DNA of 64,000 nucleotides, taken from NCBI GenBank assembly GCA_001871905.1, contig MNUG01000018.1, forward strand, positions 1 through 64,000, in the 5' to 3' direction. Under the pieces are notes generated by a model. That model searched no databases. It saw only the letters and a program-made list of their open reading frames with translations, and was not told the DNA's origin. The stretch comes from Alphaproteobacteria bacterium CG1_02_46_17. Lineage in GTDB: Bacteria > Pseudomonadota > Alphaproteobacteria > Micavibrionales > Micavibrionaceae. Positions within the stretch are counted from its first letter, which is position 1. Every line of letters starts with the position of its first letter. Below, piece after piece: positions 1-13,150 of this stretch. A program made the position numbers and the translations under genes.

Positions 1-674
1 GCCGATCCGAAGTTTTCAGCAATTTTGACATCCGTTTTAATCAGGGGGGGGGTAGGGCTTTGTGCACTAACTTCTTTTATGACATTGGATGTGAAATTGA
101 TGTCGGTGGCATCACTGAGTATCTGATCGGCATCATGAACGATTTTGCGGTTTATTTTTTCAGAATCGCTTAATTCACGGACTTCCCCGGTCAAGGGATT
201 AACATCGTGAGTAAGCGAAATGTCTTTTGTGTCCCCTTTGCTCGGTGGAGGGGTTCCATAGAGCTCTTGATAATAAGCATCTGTGATCCCACAAGTTAGA
301 CCAGTATCGACAAACTTCTCTGGTTCACTCTTAACCATTTCCTCCCATGTTTGGTACACGGGGGTCTCGATCCTCGGCTCTTGATAGGATGAATTCAGTG
401 TATCGCAAATGATCATGCAATTTTGGCGAAACTGTGTGGCTTTGGTTTGTTTTTCTTTTTCAACATCTTTTGGGTCATCGGTGTTTCCGCTGCCAAAATC
501 GTAATAATGCCTGTTTGAACGTGCGTAAATACCATTATTATGGATTTTGGGAACGCCTAGACTGGGATCGGCAACCAGCGCTTCCTCGGCCTTCCGGATC
601 TGGGAGGCGTGATCATCATCGTTTTGGACGTACGGATCTTTCAAGATCTCTGTGTTCGACATATTCGAAGCCAT
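1..674 (-). CDS. Hypothetical protein, 5' part only (runs off the window)
   Basis: I translated this reading frame by hand. It stays open from the ATG at 674 to base 1, about 224 codons, and has no stop inside the window, which is why the ORF track omits it. A second in-frame ATG at 662 is also possible. The product is hydrophilic and rich in Asp, Glu, Asn and Lys, with no signal peptide or membrane segment visible in this part. It contains scattered Tyr-rich pieces such as NRHYYDFGSG. I do not recognise a family. The frame passes through nine consecutive C (G44-G52 on the plus strand), read as Thr-Pro-Pro-Leu. Gain or loss of one base would bring a stop at once (TGA) or within two codons (TAA). 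The gene is divergent from sucC. An effector or phase-variable protein is possible, but that is speculation. Confidence 0.72.
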   Translation of the reverse strand, partial: MASNMSNTEILKDPYVQNDDDHASQIRKAEEALVADPSLGVPKIHNNGIYARSNRHYYDFGSGNTDDPKDVEKEKQTKATQFRQNCMIICDTLNSSYQEPRIETPVYQTWEEMVKSEPEKFVDTGLTCGITDAYYQELYGTPPPSKGDTKDISLTHDVNPLTGEVRELSDSEKINRKIVHDADQILSDATDINFTSNVIKEVSAQSPTPPLIKTDVKIAENFGS

Positions 675-709
675 GTATTCCCCTTACCAATTCAATTTTA
701 CAGAATTTT

Positions 710-728
710 GTTAATTCCACGTTAATTC
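710..728. promoter_or_regulatory. Direct repeat GTTAATTC x2 upstream of sucC
   Basis: Two exact copies of GTTAATTC start at 710 and 721, eleven bases apart and therefore on the same face of the helix. They sit in the 170-base divergent region between the partial unknown gene and sucC. A regulator or sigma-factor site is plausible, but no known consensus is matched. Confidence 0.3.
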
Positions 729-844
729 ATACGAAATATATTACAGGCGCGCTCCCTTTTCATTTGGACGGGAGGGTGCTATTTCAAAGGGGAAGTCGTG
801 CAAAACGATTCTCTTGATCAGAATATCTAACCGGAGAAAAAAGT

Positions 845-2050
845 ATGAATATTCACGAGTATCAGGCCAAAGAACTATTGGCAAAATATGGCGTCGCCGT
901 CCCGAAGGGCATTGCGGCAATGTCCGTTGAAGAAGCAACTGCAGCAGTTGACCAGTTGTCTGGGCCTTTATACGTCGTGAAAGCGCAAATCCATGCAGGT
1001 GGACGCGGCGCAGGTAAATTCAAAAACAATCCGGCAGGCAAGGGCGGTGTTCGCCTGTGCAAAACCAAAGAAGAAGTCAAAGACGCAGCCATCGCCATGA
1101 TGAATCAGGTTCTTGTCACAAAACAGACAGGGCCAGAAGGAAAAGAAGTACAACGTCTTTATGTGACAGATGGCGTGGACATTAAAAAAGAATATTACTG
1201 TTCGGTTGTTCTTGATCGTGAAACATCCCGCGTGACCTTCATGGTTTCGACCGAAGGCGGAATGGAAATCGAAGAAGTCGCAGAAACCCATCCCGAGAAA
1301 ATTATCAAGGCCTCGATTGATCCGGCTACCGGTATGTCCGGATTCCATGCCCGTAAATTGGCATTCGGTTTGGGCTTGGAAGGCGATGCCCTGAAATCGG
1401 CCCAAAAATTCTTCATGTCTTTATATAAGGCTTTCGTAGAACTGGACGCCTCAATCGTTGAAATCAACCCATTAATCGTCACCGATAAAAATGAAGTTGT
1501 TGCGCTTGATGCCAAAATGAATTTCGATGACAATGCCTTGTTCCGTCAGAAAGTCGTAGCCGAAATGCGCGACGAGTCAGAAGAAGACGAAAACGAACGC
1601 GAAGCCAAAAACTGGGAACTGTCCTATGTTCGTATGGATGGTAATATCGGTTGTATGGTCAATGGCGCGGGACTGGCAATGGCCACCATGGATATTATCA
1701 AGCATTACGGTATGGAACCAGCCAACTTTTTGGACGTGGGCGGCGGTGCAACAACTGAACGCGTAACAGCCGCTTTCAAAATCATTTTGTCTGACCCGAA
1801 AGTCAAAGGCGTTCTCGTCAATATTTTTGGTGGGATCATGAAGTGTGACATCATCGCCAACGGGATCATTGCTGCCGCAAAAGAAGTCGCTTTGAGCGTG
1901 CCCTTGGTGGTTCGTCTGGAAGGAACCAACGTGCAACTCGGCAAGGACATCCTGAATAATTCAGGCCTGCCGATCATCGCGGCTGATAACCTTGACGACG
2001 CTGCGCGTAAAATCGTTGACGCCACCCAAAAAGCTTTGGCTGCTGCTTAA
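845..2050 (+). CDS. sucC: Succinate-CoA ligase (ADP-forming), beta subunit
   Basis: This is the beta subunit of succinyl-CoA synthetase, a cytosolic TCA-cycle enzyme that couples succinyl-CoA cleavage to ADP (or GDP) phosphorylation. The N-terminus [16 protein letters not shown] is the family signature and is followed by the ATP-grasp domain (about residues 1-240). The C-terminal CoA-ligase domain holds [18 protein letters not shown] and the VNIFGGI motif. At 401 residues it is slightly longer than the usual 386-399; the surplus lies in an acidic linker ([14 protein letters not shown]) between the two domains. The start is supported by GGAG seven to ten bases upstream. It is followed 26 bases later by sucD, so the two subunits are co-transcribed. 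No mdh gene precedes it, although that is the common arrangement in alphaproteobacteria. Confidence 0.97.
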
Positions 2051-2076
2051 TCACTTGAGAAAAGGAATATAGAGCT

Positions 2077-2952
2077 ATGTCAGTACTCGTTAATAAAGAT
2101 ACCAAAGTGATTTGTCAGGGCTTTACCGGCGCGCAAGGCACATTTCACTCGGAACAGGCCATCGCCTATGGCACCAAAATGGTTGGGGGCGTAACACCCG
2201 GCAAAGGTGGCACCAAACATTTGAACCTGCCAGTGTTCAACACAGTGATGGAAGCCAAAGCAGAAACCGGATGTAACGCATCGGTGATTTATGTACCCCC
2301 AGCCTTTGCCGCCGATGCCATTCTTGAAGCCATTGACGCGGAAATTGAATTGGCCGTGTGTATCACCGAAGGCATTCCTGTTCTCGATATGGTCAAAGTC
2401 AAACGTGCGCTGACCGGATCAAAAACCCGCCTTATCGGGCCAAACTGCCCGGGTGTGATTACGCCGGATGAATGCAAAATCGGGATTATGCCCGGTCACA
2501 TTCATAAGCGCGGAAAAGTGGGCATTGTCTCGCGCTCCGGAACGCTGACCTATGAAGCTGTGCATCAAACCACCGCAGCAGGTCTGGGACAGTCAACCTG
2601 TATCGGGATTGGTGGTGACCCAGTGAACGGAACCAATTTTATTGATGCACTCGATATGTTCCTCAATGATGAGGAAACCGAAGCCATCATCATGATTGGT
2701 GAAATCGGGGGCTCTGCCGAAGTGGACGCTGTGAACTTCTATACAGCAGCGGCAAAGAAAAAACCGATTGCAGGCTTTATTGCTGGAGCAACGGCGCCGA
2801 AAGGAAAACGCATGGGTCACGCCGGTGCAATCATTTCTGGTGGCAATGACACAGCCGAAGTCAAAATTGCAGCCATGAAGGCCGCCGGTTTTGAAGTAGC
2901 CGAAACGCCGGCCCATCTAGGTGAAGCCGTTTTGCGTGCCATCGCAGCCTAG
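2077..2952 (+). CDS. sucD: Succinate-CoA ligase, alpha subunit
   Basis: This is the alpha subunit of succinyl-CoA synthetase. It binds CoA in its N-terminal Rossmann-type domain ([16 protein letters not shown]) and carries the phosphorylated active-site histidine, seen here in [12 protein letters not shown] near residue 246. The central GPNCPGVI motif is also present. At 291 residues it has normal length. The start is preceded by AAAGGA, and the spacing to sucC (26 bases) fits an operon. A strong intrinsic terminator follows 29 bases after the stop, so sucCD is probably its own transcription unit, separate from the unknown genes and sucA downstream. Confidence 0.97.
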
Positions 2953-2980
2953 ATTGTTTGATCAATATTAAGAGTTTGAA

Positions 2981-3005
2981 GGCAGGGATAGTTCCCTGCC
3001 TTTTT
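2981..3005 (+). terminator. Rho-independent terminator of sucCD
   Basis: A perfect 8-bp stem GGCAGGGA/TCCCTGCC with a TAGT loop is followed directly by five T. It lies 29 bases after the sucD stop. Confidence 0.9.
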
Positions 3006-3077
3006 GTTTGACAGTTGACATAACCTAAATATAAGGTGGGAGAGATAAACAAGAATAGTTCAGGGACGTCATCAAAA

Positions 3078-3992
3078 ATGGAACAGAATAAGGTTATTGA
3101 ACAACTCGTGACGCGTCATAAAAGTCTTCAGGATAGCTTTCACGAAGTCCGTGATGGAACCCTTGAGACAATTTTTTCGGTCATCGGGATGTCAAACGCT
3201 TATGCCAATAGGTATCCGCAGGAATGGTCTCAAAGGATGGGCGAGCTATGTCAAAAGATTTTTCTGAATTACAATCGCTTGTCCACCCAAATGCAAAAAT
3301 CGGCAAATGGATATGCCCAAATGGATAGCAAGGCCAAATTGGCTTTGAAAGACGGGGAATGGAAAAGCGATGATGGGAGTAATCCTCCCGATCATTTTAA
3401 GAACATCTCGGGAAAAAGGATCGATGTTTATAATTCTATGCTGGCGTTAACCCGTTTTTCCGAGTTTCGCGATGTTCTGTCTGAATATCTGGAAGTACAG
3501 GAAGATGAAAATCATGCGGTGTCTGACGCGCATCTTTCAAGTGTGTGTGTGACCAAGCAGGCCGATATCACTGAAAAACTTCACAGAGCCCAACAGGCTA
3601 GCGGAATGCCAGATTTTCTGGCTGATTTGATGGATGATGCTTCAGGAGTCAAAGATCAGAATATAGATATAGCCCTATCAAAAAAAGACATATTTGCTTT
3701 GGCAGCTGAGTCTGTTCGCGATGATTTGCATGACGAGGCGTTGGTTAAACAGGAAATGATTGGTGATCTGGTCGTTTTTTATGATTTCTTGCAGACATAC
3801 TGGCTTTCAAATGTGGGCGCAGCCCAACAAGATGAAGTACAAGATGCAGTGCAGGAAAGCCGTAAAAACGCGACCTTTGCCATGTTGGAATTTGTGGAAT
3901 ATGAAATCATCAGGACATTCGAACAATCAGAGCGAATGATTCCAGAAATTCAAGATGTTTCCAACACCTTGCAAAGTCTGGGTATGAGGTAA
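3078..3992 (+). CDS. Hypothetical helical protein
   Basis: The ORF track starts at a GTG at 3036, which has no ribosome site. The ATG at 3078 (MEQNKVIEQLV) has AGGGA eleven bases upstream and is preferred, giving 304 residues. The product looks all-helical, acidic and soluble, with no signal peptide or membrane span. A segment near the middle (DAHLSSVCVTKQADITEK) and a low-complexity GEWKSDDGSNPPD loop are the only distinctive parts. I do not recognise a family, and it is not clearly related in sequence to the three paralogs that follow. It lies alone between the sucCD terminator and the paralog cassette, on the same strand. Confidence 0.7.
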   Translation: MEQNKVIEQLVTRHKSLQDSFHEVRDGTLETIFSVIGMSNAYANRYPQEWSQRMGELCQKIFLNYNRLSTQMQKSANGYAQMDSKAKLALKDGEWKSDDGSNPPDHFKNISGKRIDVYNSMLALTRFSEFRDVLSEYLEVQEDENHAVSDAHLSSVCVTKQADITEKLHRAQQASGMPDFLADLMDDASGVKDQNIDIALSKKDIFALAAESVRDDLHDEALVKQEMIGDLVVFYDFLQTYWLSNVGAAQQDEVQDAVQESRKNATFAMLEFVEYEIIRTFEQSERMIPEIQDVSNTLQSLGMR

Positions 3993-4018
3993 TTTATCAG
4001 GCAAAGCGGACGGGGAGG

Positions 4019-4030
4019 CCCAATATTGGG
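4019..4030. promoter_or_regulatory. 12-bp perfect palindrome CCCAATATTGGG
   Basis: The palindrome lies in the 119-base gap between the helical protein gene and the first paralog, about 80 bases upstream of the paralog start. It may be an operator for the cassette. No T-run follows, so it is not an intrinsic terminator. Confidence 0.35.
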
Positions 4031-4111
4031 TCATGAGATTTGATCCTGTTTAAGTAATGCCCATCCAAAATACACTTTGAGTTATCCTCTTTTTCGTATA
4101 TTCTGCGTGTC

Positions 4112-4675
4112 ATGACAACGTTGAGCGAATTACCAGAAGATATACAAAACCTAATCATCCGACTACCATTTCGGGTGGGGTACTACGTTTCCTCCAGTGA
4201 TAAGACCGGTGGAGATGAAGCCGATCAACGGGAGATGTTGGCACTGGAGAATATCGTTACGTTTTATATTGAAGATACTCTGAAATCCGAATTTGTTCAG
4301 GAAGCCATGCAGCAGATGCTGGCTCAAAAGAAAAACTGGGATAGTTGGAAAGGCCATATCGAAATCGTACCCGAAGAATGTGTGAGGGCAACCGAAGCCT
4401 TGGTTGGTGTTATCGAGATGAAAGAAATCTGGGCGTTCAAAAACAACCTTTTGGAAATCGCCATTTCTGTTGCCCAAGCCTATCGTGAATTTAACGATAC
4501 GGTCTCGATGATTGAAAAAATTCAAACCTATCTTGCTATTTTGTCCGAAAGGATCAAGGCCGTGGTCAGCGGGCAGGAAATGCCGTCAACCGATTCCATG
4601 CTCAATATCAGCCGTGACGAACGGATGGCTATCAATCTGTTGGCCGATACCTTGGGCATTGTCGTTAAATTATAA
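4112..4675 (+). CDS. Hypothetical protein, paralog A of a three-gene tandem family
   Basis: This is a 187-residue soluble, predicted all-helical protein of unknown function. It shares four blocks, in order, with the next two genes: an N-terminal block LPFRVGYYVSSSDKTGG; a W-x2-W block (NWDSWKG); a VAQAYREF block; and a C-terminal helix block ISRDERMAINLLADTLGI. The N-terminal aromatic-x-S-x2-D piece and the last block vaguely recall the helical repeats of TerB-like proteins; this is a weak structural guess, not a family match. No Shine-Dalgarno sequence precedes the ATG. A TATATT hexamer ends only nine bases before it, so a leaderless or very short leader transcript is possible. Paralog B begins 24 bases after the stop. 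Confidence 0.75.
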   Translation: MTTLSELPEDIQNLIIRLPFRVGYYVSSSDKTGGDEADQREMLALENIVTFYIEDTLKSEFVQEAMQQMLAQKKNWDSWKGHIEIVPEECVRATEALVGVIEMKEIWAFKNNLLEIAISVAQAYREFNDTVSMIEKIQTYLAILSERIKAVVSGQEMPSTDSMLNISRDERMAINLLADTLGIVVKL

Positions 4676-4699
4676 ACTATAAAAAGATTGGATTCTTCC

Positions 4700-5254
4700 A
4701 TGTCTGATACGTCTGAACTTCAAAGATTTTTGCCAAAAGATCAGGAACTCCTCTCGGGTATTTTGTACCGCATCGGATACTGGATATCCCATATTGATGA
4801 TACAGATGAAGGGGATAGATCAGAGCAGGTTGAGCACCAACATCTTCTGGGCTGTCTGAATAAAATCTCCAAAGCCCCTAAAGCCGGAACCTTGTTGAAT
4901 GAAATGGCGGAAGAATCCTGTCGTCAGGAACAAAGCTGGCCACGCTGGGAATCGAAAAACGATTCTATTCTGGATGACGTTGCCGAGGCAGTCTCCTTGT
5001 TGAAATCACAAGGAACAGAAGACGAAGAAAAGTCATTCACAAAAGTATCCATGATGGTGGGTATGACCGTTGCGCGGGCCTTTCGTGAAGAACCCGAACA
5101 TGCTGTCGAACATGAGGGGTATTTCGCCTGGCTTACTGAAAAGGCCAATGACATGATTATGGCCGTAACGGATAAAGACGCTCATAAAGATCTGGGTGTG
5201 TCTCCGGAAGAAGACAATGCGTTGAATGATCTGCTGGCGATTCTGAAATCATGA
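4700..5254 (+). CDS. Hypothetical protein, paralog B of the tandem family
   Basis: The ORF track begins at a TTG (4688); the ATG at 4700 (MSDTSELQRF) is the better start, giving 184 residues. The family blocks are ILYRIGYWISHIDDTDEGD, SWPRWESK, VARAFREEPEH and VSPEEDNALNDLLAIL, in the same order and similar spacing as in paralogs A and C. The protein is acidic and soluble with no signal peptide. Its stop overlaps the ATG of paralog C (ATGA), so B and C are translationally coupled and probably made in fixed ratio. Function is unknown. Confidence 0.75.
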   Translation: MSDTSELQRFLPKDQELLSGILYRIGYWISHIDDTDEGDRSEQVEHQHLLGCLNKISKAPKAGTLLNEMAEESCRQEQSWPRWESKNDSILDDVAEAVSLLKSQGTEDEEKSFTKVSMMVGMTVARAFREEPEHAVEHEGYFAWLTEKANDMIMAVTDKDAHKDLGVSPEEDNALNDLLAILKS

Positions 5255-5781
5255 ATTCTCCCCTGAAACAGGATTTGAATCCGAAAGAAAAACAAGAATT
5301 GGCACGTCTGGTTTACCGGTGCACTATGTGGGTATCTATTTCTGATGAAGATGGCGGAGGATCATCCCGCAGTGCGGAAGATCGTGTGTTGAAAAAACGC
5401 ATGCAAACTTTATACAGAAATACACGACTGGGAACCAACGAGCGTGAAATTCTGGGTATCATTCTGGCTAATTCACAATATTGGAAAAGCTGGTGCGAAG
5501 GCTTGATCGACCTGATGGACGAAATTGCCCGCTATCAGGAAAGAATTCCCCCAAAATTAGCAGAAATGATTATGGCTTTGGCCATGGATGTGGCCATGGC
5601 TTTTGAAGAGCGCTCGGCATTTTCTTCTTTTTTTGTTCGTGCAGGGTTCAGAATTCGTAATATTTTTTCAAGTTCCGGCTCAATTTTATCTCCTGAAGAA
5701 CATGCCAGCATTTCACCGAATGAAAAGGCCGCCCTCAAAGAGTTGGCGTTTGCGCTAAAAGTCGATGTGTCCGGACTATAG
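5251..5781 (+). CDS. Hypothetical protein, paralog C of the tandem family
   Basis: This 176-residue protein has the same four blocks as its neighbours: LVYRCTMWVSISDEDGGG, YWKSWCEG, VAMAFEERSAF and ISPNEKAALKELAFALKV. It is the most basic and most diverged member, and carries an insertion FFVRAGFRIRNIFSSSGS before the last block that could be an amphipathic helix. Its ATG overlaps the stop of paralog B by four bases. It is followed by a 118-base gap with an inverted repeat and then sucA on the same strand. The fold may be TerB-like, judging from the last block only; the function is unknown. Confidence 0.75.
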   Translation: MNSPLKQDLNPKEKQELARLVYRCTMWVSISDEDGGGSSRSAEDRVLKKRMQTLYRNTRLGTNEREILGIILANSQYWKSWCEGLIDLMDEIARYQERIPPKLAEMIMALAMDVAMAFEERSAFSSFFVRAGFRIRNIFSSSGSILSPEEHASISPNEKAALKELAFALKVDVSGL

Positions 5782-5823
5782 TTTGTTCATTTATCAGGAA
5801 TAATTGTGTTTTTTTTAATCTTG

Positions 5824-5851
5824 GCACTGTTTTCTGATTGAAAAACAGTGC
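5824..5851. promoter_or_regulatory. 10-bp inverted repeat upstream of sucA
   Basis: GCACTGTTTT and AAAACAGTGC are perfect 10-bp arms separated by CTGATTGA. The sucA start is 48 bases downstream. There is no T-run after the stem on either strand, so an operator or an mRNA leader hairpin is more likely than a terminator. Confidence 0.5.
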
Positions 5852-5899
5852 TAATATCAGTCTTTCAAATGGTTTTTTAAGCAAAACAGAGAAATAAAA

Positions 5900-8812
5900 A
5901 TGACCAGTGCAACCTCACTCAAAACAATTCTGACCGGCGTCAACGCCGAATATATTGCCAACCTTTACCGGGAATATCTGCGCAGTCCGTCTTCGGTTGA
6001 CCCGAGCTGGCAAATGCTGTTTGCCGATCTTCAGGATGATGAGGCGTCATTGCTCAAACAGATGAGTGGAGCAAGCTGGGGAGAAGGGGAATATCGTGCG
6101 CCGTCTGCGCCCTTCGGACATCTGACTTCGGCTGACACTGCCGCAGCGACGGCAGTACCTGCCAATCAATATGCCCGTCCAGCCTTTGCCCAACAAGGTG
6201 GAAATCTAAGTGATGTCGAGCAAGCCACAAAAGATTCAATCGCTGCCCTGATGATGATCCGTGCTTATCGCGCGTTGGGACATTTGGCGGCCGATCTTGA
6301 TCCGTTAGGATTAAAACAGGCTGAATATCACAAGGAACTTGATCCAAGTTTTTACGGGTTCGGGCCACAGGATATGGATCGTCAGATTTATGTCGGCGGC
6401 GTTCTCGGCATGACCTATGCCACAATCGGCCAGATTCGCGACGCCTTGCACAGCATCTATTGTGGCAAAATTGGTGTTGAGTTTTTGCATTCCGTATCTC
6501 CGGAAGAAAAGAGTTGGATACAACAACGTATCGAGGCCTCCCGCAACCAGACACCTTTTACCCACGAAGAAAAAACCCGTTTCTATGACCATTTGATCGC
6601 CGCCGAAGGGCTGGAACGGTTTATCCATACCAAACATGTTGGAACCAAGCGGTTTGGGATTGATGGTGGGGAAAGCTTTATTGCATCGGTTGAAGAAACC
6701 ATTCGTCGTTGTGCAGATTTGGGATGTGAAGAAGTTGTTTTGGGAATGGCCCACCGTGGTCGCTTGAATGTTCTGACCAACGTTGTTGGAAAACCCTACA
6801 CCTCGCTGTTTGCTGAATTTCAAGGCTTGTCCACCAATCCGGAAGATATTCTGGGCACAGGTGACGTGAAATATCACTTGGGATATACCAATGACAAGAA
6901 ATATGGCGACAACATGGTTCACCTGACCCTGACTGCCAACCCGTCGCATTTGGAAGCGGTTAACCCCGTTGCAATTGGCCGTGTGCGTGCCAAACAATTC
7001 CAGCGTCAGGATGTCGAACGCGGCAAAGTGGTGCCAATTCTAGTGCATGGTGATGCGGCATTTATTGGTCAGGGCGTTGTTGCCGAAACTTTGATTATGT
7101 CGGAGCTTCCTGGATACCGGGTGGGAGGAACCATTCACATCGTGATCAATAACCAGATTGGTTTTACCACGATGCCAAAATATTCCCGTTCTGGCCCTTA
7201 CTGTACGGACATGGCAAAAATTCTCTCTGCGCCAATTCTCCATGTGAACGGCGATGATGTCGAGTCTGTTATTCACGTCTCGCGGCTTGCAGCCGAATTC
7301 CGCCAGGCCTTCAAAAAAGATGTGGTCATCGATATTTTCTGCTATCGTCGCTATGGTCACAACGAAGGGGATGAACCATCTTTTACCCAGCCTTTGATGT
7401 ATAAGAAAATCAAAACACTGGATAACACGCGTGAAATTTATGGTCGTCAGTTGATTGGCCAAAAAGTCCTCAGTGAAGAGTCCGCCAATGACATGGTGGT
7501 CAAGTTCCAGAAGAAACTGGACGACGCATATGAGGCAACAAAGAGCTTCAAGCCCAATAAGGCCGACTATCTGGAAGGGTATTGGTCAGGTCTGCGCGTC
7601 GCACACGGTGACGCACGCCGTGGGGCAACATCCATCTCTAAAGAGAAATTCGAGATGCTGGGCCGTGCGTTGACAACTGTCCCTTCGGATTTCAACATCA
7701 ATCCAAAAATTGCCCGTCAATTGGAACAGAAAGCCGAAATGTTCAAAACAGGCACTGGATTTGATTGGGCAACCGCTGAAGCATTGGCCTTCGGATCATT
7801 GCTTGATGAAGGGCATCATGTGCGCTTGTCCGGTGAAGATGTTGGTCGTGGGACATTCTCGCATCGTCATGCAATTTTATACGATCAGGACAACGAAAAC
7901 AAATACCTGCCTTTGCAACATGTCAGTGAAAATCAGGCTCCGATCGAAGTTCATGACAGCCCGTTGTCAGAGTTTGCAGTTCTGGGTTTCGAGCTTGGCT
8001 ATTCATGGGCAGAGCCAAAAGCTCTTGTTTTGTGGGAGGCGCAGTTCGGGGACTTTGTAAACGGAGCGCAGATTATCATTGACCAGTTTTTGGCAGCGTC
8101 TGAGAGCAAATGGTTGAGGATGTCCGGTCTGGTGATGTTGTTGCCACATGGCTTTGAAGGACAAGGGCCAGAACATTCGTCTGCACGTCTGGAGCGTTTC
8201 TTGCAACTTTGCGCCGAAGAAAACCTGCAGGTCACAAACATCACAACTCCAGCCAATTATTTCCATGCGCTGCGTCGTCAGCTACACCGTGACTTCCGGA
8301 AACCATTAATCAATATGGCTCCGAAATCATTGTTGCGTCATAAGCTGGCGGTTTCAACCGAAGACCTGTTCACGGGCCAAAGTACATTCCACCGCGTTTT
8401 GTGGGATGATAACCGTGCCAATCTGAATGCGGATAAAGACATTAAGCGTATCGTCTTGTGTAGTGGCAAAGTCTATTACGATCTTTTGGAAGAACGTAAC
8501 AAACGCGAGATCAAGGATGTGGTCTTGCTGCGGGTCGAACAGATTTACCCGTTCCCCGACAAAGTGTTGGAAGAAGAGTTCGCCAGATACCCGAATGCCG
8601 ATATTGTCTGGTGTCAGGAAGAACCGAAAAACCAAGGAGCATGGTTCTTTGTTGATCCATTGATCGAGGATATTCTGACCCAGATTAAACACAAGGCATC
8701 TCGTCCCAAATATGTCGGACGTGTCGCCGCGGCAGCTCCGGCAACGGGTTACGCCAAACGCCACGCATTTGAACAAGCCCGTTTGGTTGATGAAGCCATT
8801 ACTGCAATATAA
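5900..8812 (+). CDS. sucA: 2-oxoglutarate dehydrogenase E1 component
   Basis: This is the thiamine-diphosphate-dependent E1 subunit of the 2-oxoglutarate dehydrogenase complex. It decarboxylates 2-oxoglutarate and passes the succinyl group to the E2 lipoyl domain. At 970 residues it has normal length. The N-terminal segment with NAEYIANLYREYLRSPSSVD is the E2-binding region. Later come GMAHRGRLNVL, TANPSHLEAVNPV, the ThDP/Mg motif region GDAAFIGQGVVAET to NNQIGFTT, RRYGHNEGDEPSFTQP, and the transketolase-like pyrimidine-binding part SGEDVGRGTFSHRHA. Upstream AGAGAAA serves as ribosome site. Unusually, neither sucB nor lpd follows; the next gene is convergent and unrelated. The E2 and E3 genes must lie elsewhere. 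Confidence 0.97.
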   Translation: MTSATSLKTILTGVNAEYIANLYREYLRSPSSVDPSWQMLFADLQDDEASLLKQMSGASWGEGEYRAPSAPFGHLTSADTAAATAVPANQYARPAFAQQGGNLSDVEQATKDSIAALMMIRAYRALGHLAADLDPLGLKQAEYHKELDPSFYGFGPQDMDRQIYVGGVLGMTYATIGQIRDALHSIYCGKIGVEFLHSVSPEEKSWIQQRIEASRNQTPFTHEEKTRFYDHLIAAEGLERFIHTKHVGTKRFGIDGGESFIASVEETIRRCADLGCEEVVLGMAHRGRLNVLTNVVGKPYTSLFAEFQGLSTNPEDILGTGDVKYHLGYTNDKKYGDNMVHLTLTANPSHLEAVNPVAIGRVRAKQFQRQDVERGKVVPILVHGDAAFIGQGVVAETLIMSELPGYRVGGTIHIVINNQIGFTTMPKYSRSGPYCTDMAKILSAPILHVNGDDVESVIHVSRLAAEFRQAFKKDVVIDIFCYRRYGHNEGDEPSFTQPLMYKKIKTLDNTREIYGRQLIGQKVLSEESANDMVVKFQKKLDDAYEATKSFKPNKADYLEGYWSGLRVAHGDARRGATSISKEKFEMLGRALTTVPSDFNINPKIARQLEQKAEMFKTGTGFDWATAEALAFGSLLDEGHHVRLSGEDVGRGTFSHRHAILYDQDNENKYLPLQHVSENQAPIEVHDSPLSEFAVLGFELGYSWAEPKALVLWEAQFGDFVNGAQIIIDQFLAASESKWLRMSGLVMLLPHGFEGQGPEHSSARLERFLQLCAEENLQVTNITTPANYFHALRRQLHRDFRKPLINMAPKSLLRHKLAVSTEDLFTGQSTFHRVLWDDNRANLNADKDIKRIVLCSGKVYYDLLEERNKREIKDVVLLRVEQIYPFPDKVLEEEFARYPNADIVWCQEEPKNQGAWFFVDPLIEDILTQIKHKASRPKYVGRVAAAAPATGYAKRHAFEQARLVDEAITAI

Positions 8813-8834
8813 GGGCAAAATAAGGACAAATAAA

Positions 8835-8858
8835 AATGGCGGGGGAAACCTCGCCATT
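8835..8858. terminator. Bidirectional hairpin terminator between sucA and the MucR-like gene
   Basis: AATGGCG and CGCCATT form a stem around GGGGAAACCT. Read on the minus strand it is followed by TTTATTTG, a good terminator for the MucR-like gene; on the plus strand the T-run is poor. Confidence 0.65.
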
Positions 8859-8883
8859 CTTACATTCGGAAGGGGAGACTAGA

Positions 8884-9318
8884 TCACCCCTTTTTCCCTG
8901 AAGGCTTGCGCCCCGAAGTGCCAAGGCCAATATCCTTGGCAAGCTTGCTGCGTTGCTTGGTATAGCTGGGCGCTACCATCGGATAATCATGCGGTAATCC
9001 CCACCGTTCACGATATTGTTCTGGCGTCATGTCATAGGCGGTTTTCAAGTGACGTCTAAGCATCTTGAGCTTCTTACCGTCTTCCAGACACACAATATAA
9101 TCCGGCATGACTGATTTGCGGATCGGGACGGCGGGCTGTGGTCGCTCTCCAATTGATGTTGTCGATTTATTTTCTGCCCCCAATGTTGAAAGGGTTTTAT
9201 AAATACGCTCGATCAACGCCGGAATTTCAGGGCCGGTGACTGTATTATGAGAGAGATGGGAAGCCACAATCTCTGCAGTATAGGAAAGTAATTCGGAGTG
9301 TTTGGTGTTGTCAGTCAT
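8884..9318 (-). CDS. MucR/Ros-family transcriptional regulator
   Basis: This is a 144-residue DNA-binding protein of the alphaproteobacterial MucR/Ros zinc-finger family, which includes pleiotropic regulators of surface, symbiosis and cell-cycle genes. The diagnostic block is VCLEDGKKLKMLRRHL followed by MTPEQYRERWGLPHDYPMVAPSY. The first Cys and the first His of the finger are present. The second ligand position holds Asp (C-x2-D), as in several Mlr-type members, and the usual THY/THH piece after the first His reads TAY. Zinc binding may therefore be altered or absent. The N-terminal 60 residues form the usual helical oligomerisation part. The C-terminus is basic (SGRKPSGKKG). GGAT lies eight to eleven bases before the start. 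The gene is monocistronic and ends at the shared hairpin with sucA. Confidence 0.88.
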   Translation of the reverse strand: MTDNTKHSELLSYTAEIVASHLSHNTVTGPEIPALIERIYKTLSTLGAENKSTTSIGERPQPAVPIRKSVMPDYIVCLEDGKKLKMLRRHLKTAYDMTPEQYRERWGLPHDYPMVAPSYTKQRSKLAKDIGLGTSGRKPSGKKG

Positions 9319-9431
9319 TTGCTATCCAAAATAATCTTCAAGTGATGATACATGTTTCATTCTAGCTATATCGGCCTGCACATGGATTTTGCAAGAAAAA
9401 AGACAGTAAAGCGCAGCGTTTTATTTACAGT

Positions 9432-10235
9432 CTATTTATCAGCCAGCTCGCGTCCGCGATTGCGGGCTGCTGAGACGGCGCGCGACATCAGGTCGGTTAA
9501 CCCACTTTGTTCGGCCATCAGAACTTTGAGAGCAGCTTCAGTTGTTCCACCCGGACTGGTGACATTCTGACGAAGCGTTGCTGCGTCAAGACGGTCACTT
9601 TGTTGGGCCAGTAAGGCAGATCCAACCACCGTTTGCCGCGCCAGTTTCATGGATAAGTCGTGAGATAATCCAACAGTTTCCCCAGCTTCAGCCAAAGATT
9701 CAATCAGATGAAAAACATAGGCAGGGCCAGAGCCCGATACGGCTGTTACGGCATCCATCAGATTTTCATCATCAATCCATTCGGCAAGGCCAACACTTGA
9801 CATGAGCAGGGTCGCCTGATCTTTTTGCATAGAAGTGACGTGGCAATTGGCACATAAGACGCTCATCCCATATCCGATTGCCGCAGGCGTGTTGGGCATG
9901 ACGCGGATAACGGGTTGTCTGACATCCAGAAGACCTTCAAAAAATGAAATGGGCTTACCCGCCGCAATAGAGAGAATAAGTGTGGCAGGGGACACCAGAT
10001 GCTTCAACTGCATTATGGTCTCGGTCATGACTTGCGGCTTGACCGCCAGAATAATGCAATCGAAAGATTCTGAAATATCAGAGGCGCGGCGGAAATCTGC
10101 ATCCGGTGCAGCAGGGTCAACAACTGTGATGGACAAATTGGGGTGTTGTTCTTTCCAGCCTTTGAGCAAGGCTCCACCCATCTTGCCGCAACCAACCAAT
10201 AATAATCGCGAGTGAAGGGCAGAAGGCTGTATCAT
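9432..10235 (-). CDS. proC: Pyrroline-5-carboxylate reductase
   Basis: This enzyme catalyses the last step of proline synthesis, NAD(P)H-dependent reduction of 1-pyrroline-5-carboxylate. An N-terminal Rossmann motif (LLVGCGKMGGALLKGW), the ILAVKPQ strand, RVMPNTPA, and the C-terminal dimerisation/active-site pieces VSGSGPAYVFHLIE and VTSPGGTTEAAL are all present. The length of 267 residues is typical. It starts one base after the stop of the YbjN-domain gene, so the two are co-transcribed on the minus strand, as in many alphaproteobacteria. Confidence 0.96.
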   Translation of the reverse strand: MIQPSALHSRLLLVGCGKMGGALLKGWKEQHPNLSITVVDPAAPDADFRRASDISESFDCIILAVKPQVMTETIMQLKHLVSPATLILSIAAGKPISFFEGLLDVRQPVIRVMPNTPAAIGYGMSVLCANCHVTSMQKDQATLLMSSVGLAEWIDDENLMDAVTAVSGSGPAYVFHLIESLAEAGETVGLSHDLSMKLARQTVVGSALLAQQSDRLDAATLRQNVTSPGGTTEAALKVLMAEQSGLTDLMSRAVSAARNRGRELADK

Positions 10236-10236
10236 T

Positions 10237-10758
10237 TTACGACAATCCCACCGCAGGCATCAAAGCCAAAGCCAACTGGTCTTCGTCGTGGGTTTTTTCA
10301 GAAGCCAGCATCATAAAGGCGGGGTAATGCATATCGCATTCTTCCATTGTGATTTGAATCAATTCTTCCAGATGATCGACAATTTCCATGCCAACATTCA
10401 ACCCTTTGAGCATTTGCGTATAGCGGAAGCAGGGAATCATGCTTTCTGCAGGCAACTGGAAATGCCCCAGCCATAAATTTGTGTTGATTTCGTTGATTGT
10501 CCGGCAAGCCTGTTCATAGTTGAAATCGGCCAACCGCAAGTCATATTCGGCACAAAACTGCATAACTTCTTGTGAATCATTCCACATAAACATCATGCGG
10601 TAGATGCCGTGCTTGCCTTTGAGTTCAAGAAACAGCTCGTCCCTGTTCATGCGGGAATATTTCCAGTTCTGACGAACCAAAATATTTTCCACGCCATCCA
10701 GAGGGTTAGTGAAATCATCCATAAATTGTTCTTCAAAATTGTCGTTCGAGATCGGCAT
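10237..10758 (-). CDS. YbjN domain-containing protein
   Basis: The ATG at 10758 (MPISNDNFEEQF) is chosen over the track start at 10776 because GGAAAGGA sits just upstream of it; the product is 173 residues. The YbjN fold (type III secretion chaperone-like) is seen in NWKYSRMNRDELFLELKG, then YRMMFMWNDSQEVMQFCAEYDLR and the helix INEINTNLWLGHFQL. Family members are cytosolic putative chaperones or regulators with no defined client in alphaproteobacteria. It is upstream of proC with one base between the genes, a conserved neighbourhood that suggests co-expression. Confidence 0.85.
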   Translation of the reverse strand: MPISNDNFEEQFMDDFTNPLDGVENILVRQNWKYSRMNRDELFLELKGKHGIYRMMFMWNDSQEVMQFCAEYDLRLADFNYEQACRTINEINTNLWLGHFQLPAESMIPCFRYTQMLKGLNVGMEIVDHLEELIQITMEECDMHYPAFMMLASEKTHDEDQLALALMPAVGLS

Positions 10759-10808
10759 AAATCGTCCTTTCCGCATGGTTTTGTCGATGGAACCAGAGTG
10801 CAGAAATA

Positions 10809-11189
10809 TTATGCACGCTTTTTAGGAGCCTTTTTAACGACAGCCTTTTTAGGAGCAACTTTTTTTGCAGGAGAAGCCTTGGTTTTTGCGCTAACTTTCG
10901 CTTTAACTTTAGCTTTAGCGGCAGGGGCTTTCTTGCCCAGCATGGCTTCCAGCTCGGCAATACGCTTTTTCATATCTTCTTGCTCGATTCGCAATTTGGT
11001 GACCACACTTTGCAAACGATCAATATCATCATTGGCCGCAGAATTTCCGGCCATAAAGTCGGGAGCAAACTTCTCGCCCACCTGATCCTTTAACCCTTCG
11101 CCAAGTTGTTTGCCAAGAGTGACAAAAACAGTAGCTGCCCCACTGGCAACGCGGGTCAAGTCTTCGAAAAGTTTGTTATCAATGGTCAT
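10809..11189 (-). CDS. UbiK/BMFP-like accessory protein with Lys/Ala-rich tail
   Basis: The ATG at 11189 (MTIDNKLFEDLTRVASG) has AGGTGG at correct distance; the longer track ORF is not supported. The first 85 residues match the membrane-fusogenic BMFP/UbiK type: an N-terminal amphipathic helix followed by a coiled coil ending LRIEQEDMKKRIAELEAML. UbiK assists the ubiquinone-synthesis complex in Escherichia coli. The last 40 residues are an alanine-lysine-proline repeat (AAKAKVKAKVSAKTKASP and on) resembling bacterial histone H1-like tails; such a tail is not part of the UbiK family as I know it. A nucleic-acid-binding or lipid-headgroup-binding role for the tail is conjecture. Family assignment is moderate. 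Confidence 0.68.
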   Translation of the reverse strand: MTIDNKLFEDLTRVASGAATVFVTLGKQLGEGLKDQVGEKFAPDFMAGNSAANDDIDRLQSVVTKLRIEQEDMKKRIAELEAMLGKKAPAAKAKVKAKVSAKTKASPAKKVAPKKAVVKKAPKKRA

Positions 11190-11348
11190 AAAAGCCACCT
11201 GTTTTTTTGTCTGGCATGATTTTGGAAGTGGAAAGAGTGTTACCATTAAATCATGTAGGCTTGCAACCATTCACAAAAACGCTTAATCAGGTTTCAGTGG
11301 ATAATTTTTATACCCTGATCGAGAGATAAAACGGAAAAGGATATCAAG

Positions 11349-12341
11349 ATGATTGTTGTCACAGGCGGAACAGGCTTTATTGGCTCGAATCTAGTGGCTG
11401 GACTGGAAAAGGCGGGGCATAAACGCATTGTTTTATGCGACACGCTGGGTTCAGAGGATAAATGGAAGAATATTGCCAAGCGCAAGCTGCATAATATTGT
11501 GCCCCCCAATCGTCTGATGGATTATCTAGACGAGCATGCCAATGAAGTTGAAGCAATTTTTCATATGGGTGCGATCTCCTCGACCACCGAAAAAGACGTT
11601 GACCTGATTATCGAAACAAACTTTGTTCTGACCAGAACCTTGTGGAACTGGTGCGCGCGCCGCAATGTGCGTTTTATCTATGCATCGTCCGCTTCGACTT
11701 ACGGGGATGGTGGTGCTGGCTTTATCGATCACGATCAACCGGACTTTCTTTCAACCCTGCATCCTTTGAACCCTTATGGTTGGTCAAAGCATCTGATGGA
11801 CAGATATGCGTCCAGTATCGTCTATAAACAGGAAGAGGGTGGTATTCCGCCACAATGGTGTGGACTGAAATTTTTCAATGTGTATGGCCCCAATGAATAC
11901 CACAAAGGCGACCAGATGAGCGTCATTTGCAAGATGTACCCGCAAGTGGCGGCTGGGGCGACGGCGCGGCTGTTCAAATCCCACAACCCGGACTATGAAG
12001 ATGGTGGACAATTGCGCGATTTCATCTATGTGAAGGATTGTGTCAAGGTCATGCTCTGGCTATTCCAGAACCCACAGGTCAATGGCTTGTTCAATGTCGG
12101 AACCGGTCAGGCGCGAAGCTTCAAGGATCTGGCGATTGCAACTTTTGCTGCTGCAGGTGTGAAAGAGAAAATCCAATATTTCGATATGCCAGAACAACTT
12201 AAAGACCGGTATCAATATTTCACACAAGCCAATATGACCAAGCTTCGTGATGCAGGATACAACATGCCGTTCACCTCACTTGAGGACGGTATTCGCGACT
12301 ATGTTGTCGAGCACATGTCAAATCCGGATCAATATCGCTAA
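11349..12341 (+). CDS. hldD: ADP-L-glycero-D-manno-heptose 6-epimerase
   Basis: This enzyme forms ADP-L-glycero-beta-D-manno-heptose for the lipopolysaccharide inner core. It is an extended short-chain dehydrogenase: NADP-binding VTGGTGFIGSNLVAGLE at the N-terminus, ASSASTYGDG and the Y-x3-K pair in NPYGWSKHLMD, and the HldD-specific KFFNVYGPNEYHKGDQ motif. The length of 330 residues is typical. The stop codon overlaps the lgt start (TAATG). Its presence implies a heptose-containing LPS core; the other hld genes are not in this window. Confidence 0.95.
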   Translation: MIVVTGGTGFIGSNLVAGLEKAGHKRIVLCDTLGSEDKWKNIAKRKLHNIVPPNRLMDYLDEHANEVEAIFHMGAISSTTEKDVDLIIETNFVLTRTLWNWCARRNVRFIYASSASTYGDGGAGFIDHDQPDFLSTLHPLNPYGWSKHLMDRYASSIVYKQEEGGIPPQWCGLKFFNVYGPNEYHKGDQMSVICKMYPQVAAGATARLFKSHNPDYEDGGQLRDFIYVKDCVKVMLWLFQNPQVNGLFNVGTGQARSFKDLAIATFAAAGVKEKIQYFDMPEQLKDRYQYFTQANMTKLRDAGYNMPFTSLEDGIRDYVVEHMSNPDQYR

Positions 12342-13150
12342 TGTCACTTCCTTTTCCGAAAATTGATCCGGTGGCCTTTGCTTTTGATGTCATGGGGCAT
12401 CATTTTGAGGTTCATTGGTATGCATTGGCCTATGTTGGAGGCTTTCTGCTGGGCTGGAGAGTGGCGCTCTATCTGACGGGCTTATATAAGGACCACCTGC
12501 GCCCCAACCGCGAAGATATTGATGACTTTATCACATGGGCCATTCTGGGCGTTTTGTTTGGCGGAAGGATTGGCTACGTCCTGTTTTACAACCTGCCAGC
12601 GTATATGGATCAACCTTTGGAGGCTCTGAAAGTCTGGCATGGTGGAATGTCATTTCATGGCGGCGCATTGGGGGTTATTGCGGCACTTATTCTTTATGCC
12701 AAGGTCAAGCATGTGTCATTCTTGCGTCTTGCAGATATTGCCACAACCGTTGTGCCGATTGGCCTGTTATTGGGGCGTGTGGCGAATTTCATAAACGGGG
12801 AATTATACGGGCGTGTGACCGAGTCGTCATGGGGAGTGATGTTTCCACAGGGCGGCCCTGACCCGCGTCACCCGAGCCAGCTTTATGAGGCCGTAATGGA
12901 AGGGCTTGTGCTGTTTGTCATCCTTTTTGCTTTGATGCATGTTGATAAAGTGCGGCGTCATCAGGGCGTCGTTGCGGGGGCGTTTCTGCTCCTATATGGC
13001 GTATTTCGCTTCTGTATTGAGTTTTTCCGCGAACCTGATGTGCAATTGGGCTTTCTCTTTGACCAAGTCACTATGGGGCAAATCCTGTGTATCCCGATGA
13101 TCGTGATCGGGGCTTCGATCGTGGTCTGGCGGGCCAAATGCAAGAGTTAA
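12341..13150 (+). CDS. lgt: Prolipoprotein diacylglyceryl transferase
   Basis: This inner-membrane enzyme transfers diacylglycerol from phosphatidylglycerol to the lipobox cysteine of prolipoproteins. The 269-residue protein has about seven hydrophobic spans. Conserved pieces are HWYALAYVGGFLLGW, GGRIGYVLFYN, WHGGMSFHGG and the signature RVANFINGELYGR, then HPSQLYEA. It overlaps hldD by one base and the following methyltransferase gene by 13 bases, so the three are coupled. Lipoproteins served by it in this window include the OmpA-domain protein (29912) and the small lipoprotein at 61877. Confidence 0.96.
   Translation: MSLPFPKIDPVAFAFDVMGHHFEVHWYALAYVGGFLLGWRVALYLTGLYKDHLRPNREDIDDFITWAILGVLFGGRIGYVLFYNLPAYMDQPLEALKVWHGGMSFHGGALGVIAALILYAKVKHVSFLRLADIATTVVPIGLLLGRVANFINGELYGRVTESSWGVMFPQGGPDPRHPSQLYEAVMEGLVLFVILFALMHVDKVRRHQGVVAGAFLLLYGVFRFCIEFFREPDVQLGFLFDQVTMGQILCIPMIVIGASIVVWRAKCKS

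Follow-up and report, generated by a model that had tools for sequence, protein, structure and literature searches.

A family of small acidic proteins encoded next to sucA in Micavibrionales

Genes of a protein family that we name T lie directly upstream of sucA, the gene for the 2-oxoglutarate dehydrogenase E1 component, and the T–sucA pair is the best-kept gene link of the TCA locus to which it belongs. In 60 loci from other genomes, which were selected for a T match irrespective of sucA and are weighted toward better T matches, T and sucA were adjacent (gap <300 bp, counted over testable loci) in 52 of 60 cases, compared with 21 of 60 for sucD–T, 17 of 55 for sucC–sucD and 9 of 49 for sucA–sucB. 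The preservation of T–sucA while sucC–sucD and sucA–sucB are broken argues for a functional tie of T to SucA or to the expression of sucA.

Genes and signals of the suc locus

In the window, the whole 64,000-nucleotide stretch of DNA analysed here, the genes run in the order sucC, sucD, U, A, B, C and sucA, all on the forward strand (Table 1), and the open reading frames of B and C overlap by ATGA. An earlier note, made from this DNA alone, had described A, B and C as tandem, diverged paralogs, and the alignment statistics bear this out. In Smith–Waterman comparisons against 1000 shuffles, z was 15.8 for A–B, 13.2 for B–C and 11.5 for A–C; the observed scores were reached by 0 of 1000 shuffles, and the BLASTP E-values were 3.5e-11, 1.2e-8 and 5e-7, respectively. 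Judged by these scores, A, B and C are paralogs of one another. The motif blocks first picked out in the three proteins (aromatic-R-x3-W/Y-V/I-S-x2-D, W-x2-W, VA-x-A-F/Y and S-x2-E-x2-A-L/I) proved to coincide with the columns of highest conservation in an alignment of 121 family members, which includes A, B and C and whose residue pattern all three share. In A numbering, E41, A121, E126 and E170 are invariant in this alignment, and S27, D/E30, W79 and S167 are near-invariant. By inspection, S167-x-x-E170 at the N-terminal end of the last helix may form a helix-capping box.

Table 1. Genes and sequence signals around the T genes, in window coordinates
Feature	Position	Strand	Description
sucC	845-2050	+	window gene
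sucD	2077-2952	+	window gene
Terminator-like hairpin after sucD	2978..3003	+	predicted by consensus scan; 11-pair stem
U	3078-3992	+	304 aa; alternative GTG start at 3036 possible; helical protein, genus-restricted
Candidate -10 box (TATATT) of gene A	4097..4102	+	predicted; 9 nt before ATG
A	4112-4675	+	187 aa; acidic; T-family protein, T1 lineage
B	4700-5254	+	184 aa; acidic; T-family protein, T2 lineage
C	5251-5781	+	176 aa; T family, diverged third copy; genus-only branch
Palindrome GCACTGTTTT-N8-AAAACAGTGC upstream of sucA	5824..5851		10-bp; read directly
Extended -10 TGcTAATAT in the C–sucA gap	5849..5857	+	predicted; candidate sucA promoter
sucA (2-oxoglutarate dehydrogenase E1 component)	5900-8812	+	constant neighbour of the T family

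The remaining gene, U, is of a different kind. The same shuffle test gave z between -0.5 and 1.1 for U against A, B or C, and the possibility that U is a diverged T copy was ruled out by these values near zero. Kin of U were found in same-genus loci only, and its fold model is unreliable (pLDDT 49). In the nearest relative, two tandem U-type genes (L004:6096-7929) occur where the window has one; U1 is 90% and U2 18% identical to the U of the window. The description of the locus as three paralogs with a fourth gene needs two amendments: U is unrelated to the others and has kin only within the genus, and C is restricted to the genus, whereas A and B represent an older, family-wide pair.

With Micavibrio sp. 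UBA6212, the nearest record, as the reference, dN/dS was 0.031 for A, 0.082 for B, 0.116 for C and 0.177 for U, compared with 0.027 for SucA and 0.034 for SucD. These values support the coding status of A, B, C and U, and by this measure all four frames are under purifying selection; between such close species, the constraint on A is about that on SucA.

Several signals were predicted around these genes. The hairpin after sucD would separate sucCD from a unit of U, A, B and C. The mRNA of gene A is predicted, and likely, to be near-leaderless, and most loci of the genus have a sequence similar to its -10 box in the corresponding position. The T region was free of RNA elements in an Rfam scan of bases 1-13000. 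A sub-threshold match to the SAM-II riboswitch (11222-11295, + strand; 30.9 bits against a gathering threshold of 44, E 0.014) lies some 50 bases ahead of an epimerase-like gene at 11349 and is probably due to chance or to a diverged element.

Distribution and history of the T family

Within the bacterial family to which the window belongs, 95 of 104 genomes gave a T match when searched with B alone. A profile of the 121 members gave 96 of 104 for this bacterial family and 2 of 38 for the rest of the order, both of the latter from one other family, labelled f6; the total for the order is thus 98 of 142 genomes. A sample of the class yielded T matches in four genomes only, all from this same bacterial family, and the sole match in a sample of the phylum was the window's own genome. 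No member was found beyond the order Micavibrionales among the genomes sampled. Searches of phages and plasmids gave 0 matches, and a mobile origin of T was rejected on this ground. Within this sampling, the family is confined to Micavibrionales, which agrees with the earlier proposal of a lineage-specific paralog family seated in a core TCA locus.

Two groups, each spread across many genera, stand out in the tree of the 121 members: T1, which is A-like and older, and a B-like group with good support that comprises T2 and its relatives. Some genera have extra copies, and C falls in a branch of eight rows that is exclusive to this genus. T2, the type of B, is the usual sucA-adjacent type in other loci. 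Directly upstream of sucA there are one to three T copies, and genomes with a single copy retain either the T1 or the T2 type, so that this one site repeatedly shows the two old lineages along with more recent copies and losses. The hypothetical proteins encoded beside sucA in Micavibrio aeruginosavorus ARL-13 belong to the same family: in L075, the locus assigned to this strain, a T pair stands between sucD and sucA, that is, two copies compared with three here. The text searched from the ARL-13 genome paper does not mention 2-oxoglutarate dehydrogenase (PMC3189940).

Some genomes of the bacterial family possess sucA and no T, and since T is dispensable in these genomes, it is not essential for SucA. 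The T-less genomes are dispersed across the SucA tree, a pattern suggestive of several losses of T, although the T-less status of one of them (G077) is uncertain as its contig starts within sucA. T also occurs at a distance from sucA: genus g4 has a T gene beside mutL and opposite a phasin-like gene (L128:5084-5677 and L134:8032-8604), and in the two f6 genomes T is likewise located elsewhere. The f6 family has a compact sucC–sucD–sucA arrangement without T, from which we infer that it was probably in the Micavibrio-type lineage that T came to lie between sucD and sucA. Between genera, T diverges much faster than SucA, with a median identity of 27-32% versus 67%; the identities of the two correlate with r of about 0.75 for the sucA-adjacent copy, as is expected from common ancestry alone.

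Two further loci depart from the usual arrangement. L125 (sucA at 6157-9036) is without T and has a long SucA branch (0.6), and its SucA groups with those of L030 and L032, apart from most SucA sequences of the same genus. In L032, a 3.5-kb insertion lies between T and sucA.

Conservation of the T–sucA link

T lies upstream of sucA and on the same strand in all 56 loci that hold both genes, the window included. The gap between them has a median of 105.5 bp, and 51 of the 56 gaps are shorter than 200 bp. Counted by genus, T–sucA adjacency was observed in 28 of 30, compared with 14 of 29 for sucD–T, 7 of 28 for sucC–sucD and 6 of 27 for sucA–sucB. The earlier note had allowed for a family occurring only as single genes with no link to suc loci; what was found is adjacency to sucA in nearly every genus. 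It had also placed the family between sucD and sucA, and this position stands, but the link is specific to sucA and does not extend to sucCD. In most genera, the sucC–sucD and sucD–T gaps (L025-L084), in which genes were called mechanically, are occupied by unrelated and varying genes, frequently in the opposite orientation. In this bacterial family the suc locus is an insertion hot spot, with genes on both strands between sucC, sucD and T.

One way to account for these observations is that T has an independent cellular role and has stayed in front of sucA through shared transcription or chance, with no functional link to SucA. The T genes found elsewhere in g4 and f6 would fit such a role, as would the fact that T can vanish while sucA remains. 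However, the other links of the locus, even that between the subunits of one enzyme, are broken in most genera, and neither chance nor simple inertia explains why T–sucA was spared. We consider this explanation somewhat unlikely, although it ranks second among those weighed here.

A different account begins from the gap itself, which stays short though its sequence varies. In the window, the palindrome upstream of sucA overlaps the extended -10 sequence (5824-5857) and is a possible operator or hairpin. Several related loci have -10 sequences like this one, and sucA may have its own predicted promoter; with the extended -10 in the C–sucA gap, joint as well as separate transcription of T and sucA would be possible. 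T could then control sucA expression, at the level of transcription or translation, by acting at this promoter and palindrome region. Regulators often adjoin their target, the gap remains short, and within the genus it carries a conserved extended -10 and a palindrome, a similar palindrome being present in L026. Against this, no such palindrome is evident outside the genus, the Pfam and NCBIfam scans of T members gave no consistent match to a DNA-binding family, and T proteins are acidic, with a median pI of 4.7. Regulation of sucA expression by T is, on balance, unlikely, and we place it third.

Protein features and a possible role

T proteins are about 180 residues long and mostly acidic. 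They show no obvious signal peptide or transmembrane segment, the highest 19-residue hydropathy being 1.67. An AlphaFold2 model built from a six-sequence alignment is all-alpha with eight helices (mean pLDDT 74, pTM 0.72). Scans against Pfam, NCBIfam, PHROGs and PADLOC gave only scattered and inconsistent weak matches, a PDB sequence profile search with T gave nothing at E<0.1, and a Foldseek search of the PDB and BFVD with the model (pLDDT 74, six-row alignment) gave nothing at E<=0.001. T appears to be an undescribed cytoplasmic family with a predicted all-alpha fold.

The guess had been made that T is a remote TerB-like helical domain linked to stress or metals. T and TerB (PF05099) are alike in being small, helical and acidic, and by eye the all-alpha model, its acidic loops and the S-x2-E helix starts recall TerB. 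However, this resemblance found no sequence or profile support. TerB was not listed in a Pfam scan of A, B and C at E<=10, nor among the families listed for the 121 members at E<=1, and the TerB profile gave 0 matches in this genome. Comparison of 121 T with 30 TerB sequences by hhalign returned a probability of 3.2% over 47 columns, and no TerB chain is among the best 50 PDB matches listed by Foldseek for the model (pLDDT 74, six-row alignment). A TerB identity of A, B and C was rejected as unsupported by profile and by profile–profile comparison, and a distant TerB-like relationship, last in our ranking, is very unlikely.

The explanation that we place first, and hold only tentatively, is that T proteins act as partners of SucA (E1o), in an accessory or a regulatory capacity. 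They would bind SucA or the assembled complex, perhaps in the form of T1/T2 hetero-oligomers, and the bound T would tune the assembly or activity of the 2-oxoglutarate dehydrogenase complex, by either activation or inhibition. We count in favour of such a partner the uniform same-strand position upstream of sucA, the adjacency kept across genera despite free insertion in the other gaps, the recurrent T1/T2 copies at one site, the constraint on A and the mostly acidic, apparently soluble nature of the proteins. Counted against it are the scattered losses of T, its location by mutL in g4 and away from sucA in f6, and its faster divergence compared with SucA. In addition, co-transcription of T with sucA is not assured, since a promoter of its own for sucA is apparent in several loci.

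OdhI and GarA are FHA-domain (beta) proteins under phosphorylation control (for OdhI and PknG, see PMC9769921). We propose the OdhI/GarA-type inhibitors of 2-oxoglutarate dehydrogenase in Actinobacteria as an analogy, in that a small soluble protein acts on the E1o-containing enzyme. T differs from them in that it has no Pfam or NCBIfam match to the FHA domain, is modelled as all-alpha and is encoded by tandem paralogs beside sucA.

One possible use of a SucA partner would be to switch TCA flux between the prey-attached phase and the attack phase. This idea is drawn solely from the published statement, in the ARL-13 genome paper, that TCA genes are up-regulated in the prey-attached phase of Micavibrio (PMC3189940). 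A more far-reaching version, in which T, a family without known relatives, would be a dedicated control or assembly module of 2-oxoglutarate dehydrogenase, present only in the predatory Micavibrio lineage and serving to switch the TCA cycle as cells pass between attack and attachment, is speculative and improbable. The sucCD and sucAB links, which are kept in many bacteria, are mostly broken here, whereas T stays by sucA in nearly every genus. If T does act on SucA, it would represent lineage-specific control of a core TCA enzyme and would offer a lead to metabolic switching in epibiotic predators.
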